Positions 36,668-49,370 of a stretch of 64,000 bases of DNA are shown piece by piece. Position numbers and translations under genes: made by a program. The stretch lies in assembly GCF_014337195.1 (NCBI RefSeq), contig NZ_CP060634.1, positions 992,001 through 1,056,000 of the forward strand. Reading direction: 5' to 3'. Each line of letters opens with the position of its first letter. Within the stretch, counting starts at the first letter, position 1. Source of the DNA: Qiania dongpingensis (GTDB lineage Bacteria > Bacillota > Clostridia > Lachnospirales > Lachnospiraceae). The notes under the pieces were generated by a model. That model saw only the letters and a list, made by a program, of their open reading frames with translations. It ran no database searches and was not told the origin of the DNA.

Positions 36668-37555
36668 ATGGCCAGCATCAGAAGCACCCTGTCTTATCAC
36701 TACAGAATGAAGACAAACGCAAAGAGTGACCTGAAAAAGCAGCTGTCATACGGCAATCATGGAAAACTGTCGGAAATGATCCCTCCCCGCACCATGAAAA
36801 AAAATCATCATATCCAGGCGGAATCCCTGTCGGAACGGCCTGTATACTATATGAACTTTCAGTCTGCGACGGACAAGCCCTGTGTCCTTTATCTCCACGG
36901 CGGCGCGTTCCTGACCGGGCTCACTAAGCGCCATTGGAAGCTTTTGGATTCCATTCTCTGGGGAACCGGTTGTCCGATTGTCGTGCCGGATTATCCTTTG
37001 ATCCCGGAACACACCCATAAAAAGATAACCTCATATTGTATGGAGGTCTATTCTTCCCTGATTCCCAAATGCCCCCGCGGCATTATCCTGATGGGAGATT
37101 CCGCCGGAGGCAATCTGGCCCTGGTCCTCGCACAGCAGGCCGTAAAGCTCGGTCTGCCCCTTCCGAAGCAGATCCTTCTCCTGTCGCCGTTCCTGGACGC
37201 CACAGGGAGCAATCCTGTCAAAAATGTCCTGGCGCCCAGAGATCCTGTCTTGGAACCGGACGGCGGACGTGAAGCCGCGCTTTTATACGCCGGGACCACA
37301 CCTTTGGAGAATCCCGTCATCAGCCCCATTTTCGGTTCCATGAAGGGACTTCCGAAAATCACCGTATGGACCGGCTCCAATGATATGCTCTACGCGGATG
37401 CGCTGCTCCTGAAGGAAGCACTGCATCAGGCCAAGGTTCCTTATCATATCTACACCTATCCTCATATGGTCCATGACTGGATGCTGGACTGTTTTCCAGA
37501 ATCCCGCACCGCAGTTCGCCAAATCGCCATGACAATAACAGAGAGCCTCCGCTAA
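36668..37555 (+). CDS. Alpha/beta hydrolase, hormone-sensitive-lipase-like esterase
   Basis: The 295-residue protein has the HSL-family oxyanion motif LYLHGGAF near residue 77 and the nucleophile elbow GDSAGGNLA near 143. An acidic residue lies in the GSNDMLYADA segment, and the catalytic His is in HMVHDWM. These place it among carboxylesterases/lipases of family IV. An AAAGGAG box lies 6 bp upstream of the ATG. Its stop codon TAA (37553-37555) lies in what was the loop of its own terminator hairpin. The right half of that hairpin is now 11.8 kb away because a mobile element was inserted at 37560. Confidence 0.88.
   Translation: MASIRSTLSYHYRMKTNAKSDLKKQLSYGNHGKLSEMIPPRTMKKNHHIQAESLSERPVYYMNFQSATDKPCVLYLHGGAFLTGLTKRHWKLLDSILWGTGCPIVVPDYPLIPEHTHKKITSYCMEVYSSLIPKCPRGIILMGDSAGGNLALVLAQQAVKLGLPLPKQILLLSPFLDATGSNPVKNVLAPRDPVLEPDGGREAALLYAGTTPLENPVISPIFGSMKGLPKITVWTGSNDMLYADALLLKEALHQAKVPYHIYTYPHMVHDWMLDCFPESRTAVRQIAMTITESLR
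37539..37549 (+). terminator. Left arm of a terminator split by the mobile element
   Basis: CAGAGAGCCTC here is the exact complement of GAGGCTCTCTG at 49353-49363, which is followed by CTTTTTT. Joining the flanks makes an 11-bp stem, a short loop and a T-run: a standard intrinsic terminator for the hydrolase gene. In the present arrangement it cannot form. Confidence 0.8.
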
Positions 37556-37559
37556 TGAT

Positions 37560-37576
37560 GAGGTTCCGCAACGAAG
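37560..37576 (+). repeat. Left imperfect terminal inverted repeat
   Basis: GAGGTTCCGCAACGAAG matches the reverse complement of 49328-49344 at 13 of 17 positions (GAGGT and AACGAAG identical). It begins exactly at the inferred left boundary. Confidence 0.55.
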
Positions 37577-37641
37577 GTTTTGAAACAATCGGTACGGTAT
37601 GTTGCAAAAACTACGAACATAATAATTTGGAGGAAAATGCA

Positions 37642-38022
37642 ATGGAAAAACTCATCTATGATGAAAGAAACGGCCTTTGGTATGAACTGCAAGGCGATTA
37701 CTATCTGCCTTGCCTGAAATCACATGCCGAAAAAGAACACTGTCCTATTGGCATCTGGGGACAGCGGCATTTACGGTATATCAAACAGCATAAGCGTGTA
37801 TTTTATACCAATCTGCTGACAAATGGCAATTTGAACGGCTATCTTGCAAACCTCAATGAGCAGGCAGAGGAAATGTTTTCTCAGTTGGTAAAGGAACTTG
37901 CTGAAAAAGAAGGGGTAAGCGAAACACTCAAGGCAGAAAATCAAATGGCTTGGGTTGGCATAATGAATAGTATTCAAAACAGTACAAGAGAGATTGTAAA
38001 TACTGAACTAATCTATCAATAA
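37642..38022 (+). CDS. tnpV: TnpV-family transposon-encoded protein
   Basis: The 126-residue protein matches TnpV, found in Tn4451/Tn4453 and many related mobilizable elements of Firmicutes. It has MEKLIYDERNGLWYELQGDYYLP at the start, a central GIWGQRHLRYIKQHKR segment, and late LKAENQMAWVGIMNSI. The GGAGG box 8 bp before the ATG at 37642 fixes the start; the longer open frame upstream is element-junction sequence. Its function is not established; loss in Tn4451 did not clearly affect excision, as I recall. It is the first gene inside the left end and may receive read-through from the hydrolase promoter. Confidence 0.85.
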   Translation: MEKLIYDERNGLWYELQGDYYLPCLKSHAEKEHCPIGIWGQRHLRYIKQHKRVFYTNLLTNGNLNGYLANLNEQAEEMFSQLVKELAEKEGVSETLKAENQMAWVGIMNSIQNSTREIVNTELIYQ

Positions 38023-38023
38023 C

Positions 38024-38062
38024 AGAAAATCCCTACTGGTTATCTTCCAGTAGGGATTTTCT
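38024..38062. terminator. Bidirectional terminator between tnpV and hsdR
   Basis: A perfect 16-bp stem (AGAAAATCCCTACTGG with its complement, 7-nt loop) serves both convergent genes. It insulates the restriction operon from outside transcription. Confidence 0.9.
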
Positions 38063-47529: not shown

Positions 47530-47558
47530 TTGAATTAAGACTTCGGATATGGTATAAT
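47530..47558 (+). promoter_or_regulatory. Promoter of the serine recombinase gene
   Basis: TTGAAT (47530-47535), a 17-bp spacer and a perfect TATAAT (47553-47558) lie 46 bp before the recombinase start. The recombinase can therefore be made independently of the mobilization operon. Confidence 0.8.
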
Positions 47559-47603
47559 ACGGACACGCAATATGCTGTATCCGATTGTCGGAAAGGAGTT
47601 ACT

Positions 47604-49274
47604 TTGAATAACAGACAATCAGAACAGAACAAAATTACCACCCTTTACTGCCGGTTAAGTCAAGACGACGGGCGTGAGGGTGAAAGCAATTCAATCGTCA
47701 ACCAAAAAGCATTGTTAAAAGAATATGCAAGAAAGCACGGCTTCAAACATCTGAGATTCTTTGTGGACGACGGGTATTCGGGTACGAGCTTCGATCGTCC
47801 GTCTTTCAGGGAAATGGAACAGTTGATTGAAAGCGGCAGAGTGAGTACGGTTATAGTAAAGGATATGTCACGGTTAGGGCGAAATTATCTGCAAGTGGGA
47901 ATGTATACCGATATTGTATTTCCTGAAAACGATGTGCGGTTTATCGCTGTCAACGACAATGTGGATTCCGCCGTACAGACGGAATTTGATATGACGCCGA
48001 TCCGCAATTTCTGCAACGAGCTATATGCCAGAGACACCGCTAAGAAAATCAAGTCCACCTTCCGAATGAAAGGTGAAAGCGGAAAGCACCTGACAACCAA
48101 TCCACCTTTCGGATTTATCAAAGATACCGAAGATAAGGATAAATGGCTGATAGACGAAGAAGCGGCAGATACGTTGCGGTATATCTTCAAACTGTGCTAT
48201 GACGGGTTTGGACCTACGCAGATTGCAAAGAAGCTGAAAGCGGAAAAGGTGCTGACTCCCATGGCGTACAAGGCGCAGAAGGACGGAAAATTACTTCCCG
48301 CCGAGCCGTATAAATGGGCACAGAAAACCGTTGCAGGAATTTTAGAGAAATTGGAGTATATCGGGAATACCGAAAACTTCAAGACCACCTCTAAAAACTA
48401 CAGAAGCAAAAAGCGTGTGTGGAATGACAAGGAAAAACGCCGGGTATTTGAAGATACCCACCCTGCTATTGTAGACAAGCATATCTTTGAAACGGTACAG
48501 GAAATTCGCAAGCATAAATGCCGACCGACCGCAACAGGGAAAATCAGTATATTTTCTGGAAAGGTATTCTGTGCGGATTGCGGAGCAAAGCTGCATTTCC
48601 ACACCTCTCATTCGCACGAGGAACGGCAGGAAAGTTTCACTTGTGCAAATTACCGAAGCAATACAGGTAGTTGTACGATTCACTATATTCGGGCAGTTAC
48701 CTTAAATCGGCTTGTATTTCAGCATATTCAAAGAGTACTCTCGTATATTCAGCAGTTTGAAGCAGTCTTTGTCAAAAAAGAAATGGAAAAAGCCAACGCT
48801 GAACGCCTGATGTTGGTGGAAAAAGCAAAGGTGGACATCGTAACGCTCAAACGCAGAGACGAGGACTTGGATACGCTTTTCAAGCGAATCTACGAGGATA
48901 TGGTGTCGGGCAGGCTTTCGGCGGAACGGTTTGACAAGCTTTCTTCCGAGTACGAAACAGAACAGAAGAATGTCAAGGCGGCAATTCTTAATTTGCAGGA
49001 ATTGATTGACAGCGGCGAACAGGAACAGCACGACCTTCAGCAATTTCTGAAGAATGTTCGCAAATACACCGATCCCGAAGAATTAACCGCTGAAATTCTG
49101 AATGATTTGGTTGACAAAATCATAGTCCACGCTCCCGACAAGAGTAGCGGACACAGAAAGCAGAAGATTGAAATTTACTACAAGGCTGCGGGCATTATCA
49201 ATATTGCCGACGAGGACTGCGTTGCCCTTGATGGCAGACTTGGTATGCAAAACCGAAAGAAGAAAACAGCCTAA
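47604..49274 (+). CDS. Large serine recombinase (TnpX/DUF4368 type)
   Basis: The 556-residue protein has an N-terminal resolvase domain with the catalytic Ser in YCRLSQDDG (about residue 18), and SRLGRNYLQVGMYTD as the conserved Arg motif. A recombinase domain (NPPFGFIKD ... GPTQIAKKL) follows, then a zinc ribbon (FCADCGAKLHFHTS with a later CANYRSNTGSC). A coiled coil and C-terminal DUF4368-like region end the protein. The start is TTG at 47604 after GAAAGGAG. It should excise and insert the element at GA sites. It is the last gene before the right end, as expected for this family. Confidence 0.93.
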   Translation: MNNRQSEQNKITTLYCRLSQDDGREGESNSIVNQKALLKEYARKHGFKHLRFFVDDGYSGTSFDRPSFREMEQLIESGRVSTVIVKDMSRLGRNYLQVGMYTDIVFPENDVRFIAVNDNVDSAVQTEFDMTPIRNFCNELYARDTAKKIKSTFRMKGESGKHLTTNPPFGFIKDTEDKDKWLIDEEAADTLRYIFKLCYDGFGPTQIAKKLKAEKVLTPMAYKAQKDGKLLPAEPYKWAQKTVAGILEKLEYIGNTENFKTTSKNYRSKKRVWNDKEKRRVFEDTHPAIVDKHIFETVQEIRKHKCRPTATGKISIFSGKVFCADCGAKLHFHTSHSHEERQESFTCANYRSNTGSCTIHYIRAVTLNRLVFQHIQRVLSYIQQFEAVFVKKEMEKANAERLMLVEKAKVDIVTLKRRDEDLDTLFKRIYEDMVSGRLSAERFDKLSSEYETEQKNVKAAILNLQELIDSGEQEQHDLQQFLKNVRKYTDPEELTAEILNDLVDKIIVHAPDKSSGHRKQKIEIYYKAAGIINIADEDCVALDGRLGMQNRKKKTA

Positions 49275-49327
49275 AGACGCAAAGCGGCGGCACAGCTTTT
49301 CGGCTGCACCGCCACCTTACATAAATA

Positions 49328-49344
49328 CTTCGTTATCGCACCTC
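49328..49344 (-). repeat. Right imperfect terminal inverted repeat
   Basis: CTTCGTTATCGCACCTC is the partner of 37560-37576 (13 of 17 positions). It ends 8 bp inside the inferred right boundary. The strand between recombinase stop and this site holds a GGCGG/CCGCC hairpin (49286-49313). Confidence 0.5.
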
Positions 49345-49352
49345 GGCTAAGG

Positions 49353-49370
49353 GAGGCTCTCTGCTTTTTT
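49353..49370 (+). terminator. Right arm and T-run of the terminator split by the element
   Basis: GAGGCTCTCTG followed by CTTTTTT completes the stem begun at 37539-37549. It no longer has its partner nearby. Confidence 0.8.

Follow-up and report, generated by a model that had tools for sequence, protein, structure and literature searches.

Intrinsic terminators as the probable integration target of a mobilizable element in Qiania dongpingensis and of related elements

Mobilizable elements that integrate with low specificity by means of a TnpX-type recombinase are already known, and so are multi-targeting recombinases with the domain DUF4368 (PMC3158075, PMC5704250, PMC10083194). Here we describe an element with a recombinase of this type in Qiania dongpingensis (GCF_014337195.1, NZ_CP060634.1). 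It lies behind a host alpha/beta hydrolase gene in the window, by which we mean the whole stretch of 64,000 nt that was analysed (positions 992,001-1,056,000, forward strand; coordinates below count from its first base). In our opinion the TnpX-type DUF4368 recombinase of this element very probably uses intrinsic terminators as its bacterial attachment site (attB). Judged from the flanks of related elements, the splitting of terminators is a habit of the family and not of this element alone.

One mobilizable element that invites comparison goes by the name IME_Rho_tet, in which we take 'Rho' to stand for Roseburia hominis. It too has a serine recombinase, with inverted repeats of 21 bp and a 3' boundary 81-90 bp past the recombinase gene, whereas its main site lies inside MAFF2 open reading frames (PMC12904643). 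Tn4451 and Tn4453 share with our element a TnpX-type recombinase, TnpV, a relaxase, a 2-bp crossover and a low specificity of integration (PMC3158075, PMC5704250); the cargo differs, being a type I restriction-modification system in our case. The multi-targeting recombinases described by Durrant and co-workers (2022), Cp36 among them, likewise have DUF4368 and many targets, and Cp36 a motif of the form A-rich/AA/T-rich. However, targets are given there as sequence motifs (PMC10083194), while here the target would be a terminator loop with paired arms.

As for terminators, group IIC introns are mobile elements tied to intrinsic terminators, as the title of Robart 2007 states (cited in PMC7161350). 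They are the nearest precedent for terminators as targets, but theirs is an RNA-based retrohoming after the terminator, whereas in our case a DNA recombinase would act within the loop. Tn7 likewise inserts behind a gene, at its terminator (attTn7); there, however, one fixed site is chosen through the end of glmS, with other machinery. Among the titles and abstracts listed in the literature searched, none reports the insertion of serine recombinases into intrinsic terminators; most subscription papers lie outside that literature, and the finding may have been reported before. The main texts of PMC3158075, PMC5704250, PMC10083194, PMC12904643 and PMC13137831 do not contain the word 'terminator', and the passages on Tn4451 in the first two mention no preference for terminators.

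The split terminator and the exact ends of the element

The sequence CAGAGAGCCTC at 37539-37549 is complementary to GAGGCTCTCTG at 49353-49363, which is followed by one C and by TTTTTT at 49365-49370. The first-pass annotation had pointed to these two 11-mers and the T-run. They stand where it put them, and their pairing is more than chance, as the same relation between the flanks recurs in 15 of 17 elements. The features that define the locus are as follows.

36668-37555, + strand: host alpha/beta hydrolase gene (open reading frame; Pfam Abhydrolase_3)
37539-37550, + strand: left stem arm of the split terminator, CAGAGAGCCTCC, pairing with 49352-49363 on rejoining
37554-37555: predicted crossover dinucleotide AA at the left junction (equal pair 4 nt outside the inverted repeats)
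37556-49350: mobile element of 11,795 bp, the core being included once (equal pair outside the repeats, and relatives' right ends)
37560-37576, + strand: left terminal inverted repeat GAGGTTCCGCAACGAAG (sequence; related left ends)
49328-49344, + strand: right terminal inverted repeat CTTCGTTATCGCACCTC (sequence; relatives)
49349-49350: predicted crossover dinucleotide AA at the right junction (equal pair 4 nt outside the inverted repeats; relatives)
49352-49363, + strand: right stem arm of the split terminator, GGAGGCTCTCTG, pairing with 37539-37550 on rejoining
49365-49370, + strand: T-run of the split terminator (sequence)

When the two flanks are rejoined, the site reads CAGAGAGCCTCC-GCTAAG-GGAGGCTCTCTG, then C and TTTTTT, which makes a stem of 12 bp with a loop of 6 nt. 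It folds at -25.8 kcal/mol (z -5.9), a value equalled by 0 of 200 shuffles. Lying behind a gene, with a GC-rich stem-loop and a T-run after it, the site has the features of an intrinsic terminator, and such a terminator is predicted here. The stop codon TAA of the hydrolase occupies 37553-37555, its last two bases being the crossover pair AA.

The position of the crossover needs some explanation. Nucleotide identity with relatives ceases at about 49350. Among the loci sharing TTCGTTATCGCACCTC, GGCT follows the right repeat in 11 of 11 and AA comes next in 9 of 11, and beyond that point the loci diverge, so that GG at 49351-49352 is host DNA. The same dinucleotide, AA, stands at both junctions of the window element, 4 nt outside each inverted repeat, and the rule 'equal pair 4 nt outside the repeats' yields equal cores in 9 of 9 pairs of clade A (defined below). 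Hence we place the crossover at AA (37554-37555 and 49349-49350), from which the length of 11,795 bp follows. The first-pass annotation had instead removed 37560-49352 at a repeated GAGG, with a loop of 10 nt. GAGG does stand at 37560-37563 and at 49353-49356; recombination there would nevertheless leave the GGCT and AA that relatives keep past the right repeat, and the equal cores of clade A, out of account, and we give it next to no credence. Judged by the relatives, the repeat is a coincidence: its left copy starts the terminal inverted repeat and its right copy belongs to the host stem. The predicted circle junction is then ACCTCggct-AA-tgatGAGGT. A sequence of the circle would be expected to read ACCTCGGCT-AA-TGATGAGGT, and the predicted empty site is CAGAGAGCCTCCGCTAAGGGAGGCTCTCTG.

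Relatives of the element and their targets

The comparison draws on relatives of the recombinase at 80 loci, kept out of 175, from GTDB contigs and at 16 loci from viral contigs, both sets found with an alignment as query; the recombinase as a single query gave no match in viral contigs. Two order-wide searches, with matches in 12 of 394 and 3 of 392 genomes, gained few usable loci. We call clade A the recombinases at least 63% identical to that of the window, and clade B those at 46-49%.

Both ends could be placed for 17 elements, the window element included. A hairpin is restored on rejoining in 15 of them, with the centre of the dyad no more than 1.5 nt from the core. A helix of at least 9 bp beginning no more than 5 nt from the core is present in 13 of the 17; shorter ones occur in L077 (7 bp) and in L034 (6 bp), the rejoined site of which folds at -13.2 kcal/mol. 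The longest helix averages 12.2 bp for native flank pairs against 7.0 bp for swapped ones, and 0 of 200,000 flank permutations reach the observed sum, which still holds with the T-run cut off (15 pairs). Cores are equal at both junctions in 16 of 17, reading AA, CA, TT, GA, TC or TG across elements, and the core is separated from the T-run by 7-16 nt. Complementarity was what first revealed the left ends of L013 and L030, a circular route; scanning later for the repeat motif alone gave the same ends, as sole hits in those sequences. That scan also yielded L014 and L023, and L014, having no hairpin, is counted below among the points that speak against us.

One of the 17 is spread over two contigs of genome G896. 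The left end in L142 and the right end in L076 have complementary flanks and equal cores, and we take the two to be one element; split hairpins may thus help to link contigs.

Right ends can be placed more often than left ones: 35 were attempted in clade A, of which L019 remained unplaced, leaving 34, and 27 were counted in clade B. Beyond the conserved end most relatives have a GC-rich half stem, differing from locus to locus, and then T's. TTTT starting 5-24 nt past the core is seen in 32 of 34 ends of clade A and 25 of 27 of clade B (57 of 61 together), against 13.5% of 17,700 random host positions; AAAA in the same range is seen at 4 of the 61, its background being 11.6%. When near-identical flanks, such as those of L035 and L038, are removed, TTTT remains at 29 of 31 and 24 of 26 ends. 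Among the four right ends lacking it, L010, L033 and L077 have TTT there and the end of L017 is degraded. T stands at +12 in 27 of 27 ends of clade B and at +15 in 28 of 34 of clade A, hence each clade has its own distance from core to T. With 31 distinct right flanks in clade A and 26 in clade B, closely related recombinases sit in many different sites, and judged by these flanks they are multi-targeting.

L023-L027 have GGTTGnCGCAC before the T-run in common while the DNA beyond differs, which would fit a shared type of target or DNA of the element; the left flank of L023 pairs with this conserved right flank. We also considered whether the flank might form a new terminator together with the right end of the element itself. 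This idea was dropped: clade A gave no signal (2,779 of 20,000 permutations reach the observed sum) and clade B a weak one (341 of 20,000).

Relatives without the element were sought within the genus, with joined flanks as query. The homologous element-free place holds an unbroken hairpin in 11 of 12 readable relatives (loci L009, L010 and L016, other members of the family), an outcome in keeping with the first-pass annotation. For L009 seven relatives were fetched, of which three remained unmatched and four were readable by the probe, all four with the hairpin; the T-run is clear in L120 and L126 and weaker in L121 and L123. For L010 the hairpin is present in three of three relatives (L136-L138), matched by the right flank only. 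For L016 seven were fetched and five were readable: L128, L132, L133 and L134 have the hairpin and L130 has none that is clear, L129 being masked and L131 having no match to the probe. Further, L040 sits in an array between near-identical intact copies of its own target, its rejoined 20-nt hairpin being equal to a copy about 0.14 kb to the left (0 mismatches) and to another about 0.12 kb to the right (1 mismatch). The units of this array (L040:700-1030 and 11700-11900) each carry the hairpin GGAAGCGGTTCGCCGCTTCC and resemble a host repeat family. Finally, L008 and L009 hold the same element (a single difference over 9,133 bp), and the two terminators in which it sits are unrelated, flanks included. 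Its presence in two genomes is, as far as the two copies can tell, indirect support for excision and transfer in the family.

One could argue that all this reflects survival alone, insertion being nearly random and only harmless insertions behind genes persisting. Terminators do lie between genes, and L008/L009 is one element in two such places. However, harmless intergenic DNA is far wider than a loop, and the crossover falls no more than 1.5 nt from the dyad centre in 15 of 17 elements. The background for stems was taken from 549,774 bases of host DNA, where 0.6% of random positions have a core helix of 9 bp or more. The orientation of the elements towards the T-run is also fixed. We consider such a filter highly improbable as the explanation. 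The first-pass annotation had assumed that the hairpin itself was used as target at this one locus; the relatives compared bear this out, as such hairpins are their usual target.

Hairpin, tracts and the recognition of the target

Several observations weigh against terminators as the target, or against the hairpin as part of it, and we gather them here. In L014 and L053 the cores are equal and both tracts are present, but there is no hairpin. The right end of L017 is degraded and shows no T-run; its left-end motif is present, and the locus is left unpaired. The cores of L077 are unequal, and the left ends of L004, L020, L028 and L029 were found neither by the repeat motif nor by complementarity to the right flank. 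When the first 15 pairs are ranked row by row, the native partner comes out strictly first in 11 of 15 and first or tied in 13 of 15, and 7 of 210 swapped flank pairs reach 11 bp. Among the relatives without the element, only L123 and L128 match on both flanks, the others of L009 matching on the right flank. For the window locus itself no relative with the hydrolase was found: it is encoded by 0 of 93 pattern matches in GTDB contigs and by 0 of 392 genomes of the order of genome G001 (a search that had no positive control). The proteins nearest to the hydrolase, its own excepted, are at most 75% identical and come mostly from short metagenome contigs.

What, then, does the enzyme read in a terminator? 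It might read a linear motif in which an A-tract and a T-tract flank the core dinucleotide at set distances, terminators being just common carriers of it and the hairpin going unsensed. The T at a fixed, clade-specific distance agrees with this, as do L014 and L053 with their tracts and matching cores, and Cp36, a related multi-targeting recombinase, has in human DNA a motif made up of an A-rich 5' region, an AA core and a T-rich 3' region (PMC10083194). But tracts alone would rarely bring a stem with them. Of the host positions that have an A-tract and a T-tract at such distances (n 17,659), 3.4% show a core helix of 9 bp or more, and of those that also have GC-rich arms (n 7,223), 5.6% do, while such a helix is observed in 11 of 15 elements with both tracts and in 10 of 13 with GC-rich arms. 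Hence either there is a preference for the dyad over and above that for the tracts, or some further linear feature is present in terminators. In our opinion a purely linear motif deserves to be taken seriously, even if we hold it to be somewhat improbable. L014 and L053 suggest, by their flanks, that tracts without a hairpin may at times serve, unless their left ends are the wrong partners.

At the other extreme, the recombinase might recognise the terminator as an extruded cruciform, or by a polymerase that has halted there, so that pairing arms of nearly any sequence would do. Pairing is indeed kept despite variable arms, a dimer that reads each arm alone could not compare the two, and the T-run is on one side only. 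On the contrary, serine recombinases are established to act on duplex sites with a 2-bp core (cf. PMC3783163), the fixed position of the T fits contacts on a duplex, and L014 and L053 again have no hairpin. Recognition of this kind seems to us unlikely. The wider claim, that much of the multi-targeting DUF4368 clade has terminators as its general target in nature and that the enzyme reads a secondary structure, sensing through a cruciform or a terminating polymerase the pairing of the arms and not only their sequence, we also regard as doubtful, if perhaps a shade less so.

We therefore return to terminators as the probable attB and ask how they might be used. Comparison of the loci places the predicted crossover at a core of 2 bp inside the loop of the hairpin, no more than 1.5 nt from the dyad centre, with the arm that bears the T-run on the recombinase side. 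It further shows that, as aligned, the arm sequences vary between sites while their pairing is kept, and that the distance from core to T is typical of each recombinase clade. A recombinase dimer would sit on the dyad, and its zinc-ribbon domains would lie on the outward T-tracts, i.e. on the T-run of one arm and on the A-run (T on the other strand) of the other. In a model of the Listeria integrase the zinc domains lie over base pairs 11-19 on attB, counted from the crossover, which is 5 bp closer to it than on the attachment site attP (PMC3783163). Set against this range, the separation of 7-16 nt between core and T-run overlaps well in clade A and partially in clade B. The pairing of the variable arms might be sensed via a palindromic duplex, a cruciform or a terminating polymerase. 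Recombination between a terminator site and the circle junction would then split the terminator, and at the window locus transcription of the hydrolase would enter tnpV and may end at a predicted hairpin at 38024-38062.

Gene content, range and significance

The remaining features of the element and its surroundings are the following.

37642-38022, + strand: tnpV (Pfam TnpV, 4.8e-44; start picked from GAGGAA ahead of ATG)
38024-38062, - strand: predicted terminator-like hairpin within the element, between tnpV and hsdR (consensus scan)
38062-41202, - strand: hsdR, type I restriction subunit (Pfam)
41195-42499, - strand: hsdS, specificity subunit (Pfam Methylase_S)
42456-43250, - strand: 264-aa protein, encoded between hsdS and hsdM (no family found in Pfam or in NCBIfam)
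43251-44909, - strand: hsdM, methylase subunit (Pfam N6_Mtase, HsdM_N)
45979-47247, + strand: MobV-like relaxase (Pfam Mob_Pre above cut-off; NCBIfam MobV below cut-off)
47604-49274, + strand: TnpX-type large serine recombinase with DUF4368 (Pfam; TnpX 2mhc, E 2.7e-42)
49377-53138, - strand: convergent host gene (1253-aa open reading frame)

The recombinase has, in order, the Pfam domains Resolvase (PF00239), Recombinase (PF07508), Zn_ribbon_recom (PF13408) and DUF4368 (PF14287) and a long C-terminal part. Its best match among solved proteins is TnpX (2mhc), and with the Pfam domains and the relaxase this agrees with what the first-pass annotation had proposed, a mobilizable element with a TnpX-type recombinase in the terminator of the hydrolase gene. 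No family of conjugation was matched by any of the ten proteins searched (Pfam). With genes for an integrase and a relaxase inside defined ends, and conjugation machinery not found, the element is by its gene content an integrative and mobilizable element. The element is also richer in AT than its surroundings, the GC content of 1-kb windows being 0.34-0.46 between 38 and 49 kb and mostly 0.46-0.55 outside.

Type I systems carrying an extra gene, as the 264-aa reading frame here, may merit attention. The convergent host gene presumably encodes FGAM synthase (purL), judged by its sequence. Elsewhere in the window GC content drops to 0.40 at 19001-20000, right after three tRNA genes (18609-18960), possibly because of another insertion. 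Very short elements also exist: L049:879-3313 spans about 2.4 kb and L141:about 240-3060 about 2.8 kb between ends. In L049 the recombinase gene (1622-3214) fills most of the element, which suggests, from its layout, that mobility may need little else.

How far does the habit extend? In a tree of 74 recombinases all 53 rows labelled terminator fall within one group of 57 (support 100/98), and the other four rows of that group are L017 with its degraded end, L058 cut by the contig, and L065 and L072, where no T-run was seen. The 17 rows outside are all labelled other. The label needs 4 changes on the tree, and 0 of 500 shuffles need as few; the labels were set by hand from right flanks, the ends behind the label terminator are weak or unplaced for L012 and L019, and long branches are flagged. 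The MAFF2-like loci L082-L085, and L057-L063, fall outside the terminator group. L082-L085 (about 43% identity) end in reading frames resembling the MAFF2 target of IME_Rho_tet, and L057-L063 end in a common CCCCTAAA, without a T-run. The more distant L056 and L073 have apparent tRNA genes just past the recombinase, perhaps another type of target.

Multi-targeting serine recombinases are under development for genome engineering, and their natural targets have so far been called AT-rich motifs or put down to low specificity. What seems new against the literature searched is the terminator as target, which turns 'multi-targeting' into a rule that can be tested. If the terminator loop is the natural attB, the choice of target would be predictable from sequence, the A-rich/AA/T-rich motif of Cp36 would have a possible biological reason, and split hairpins would allow the ends of an element to be matched, even where they lie on different contigs. 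As terminators are abundant and follow stop codons, a single enzyme can find landing sites in plenty, in many hosts, and leave genes intact. Terminators would thereby join the gene-sparing landing places of mobile elements, which would account for the crossing of species without a conserved target gene.

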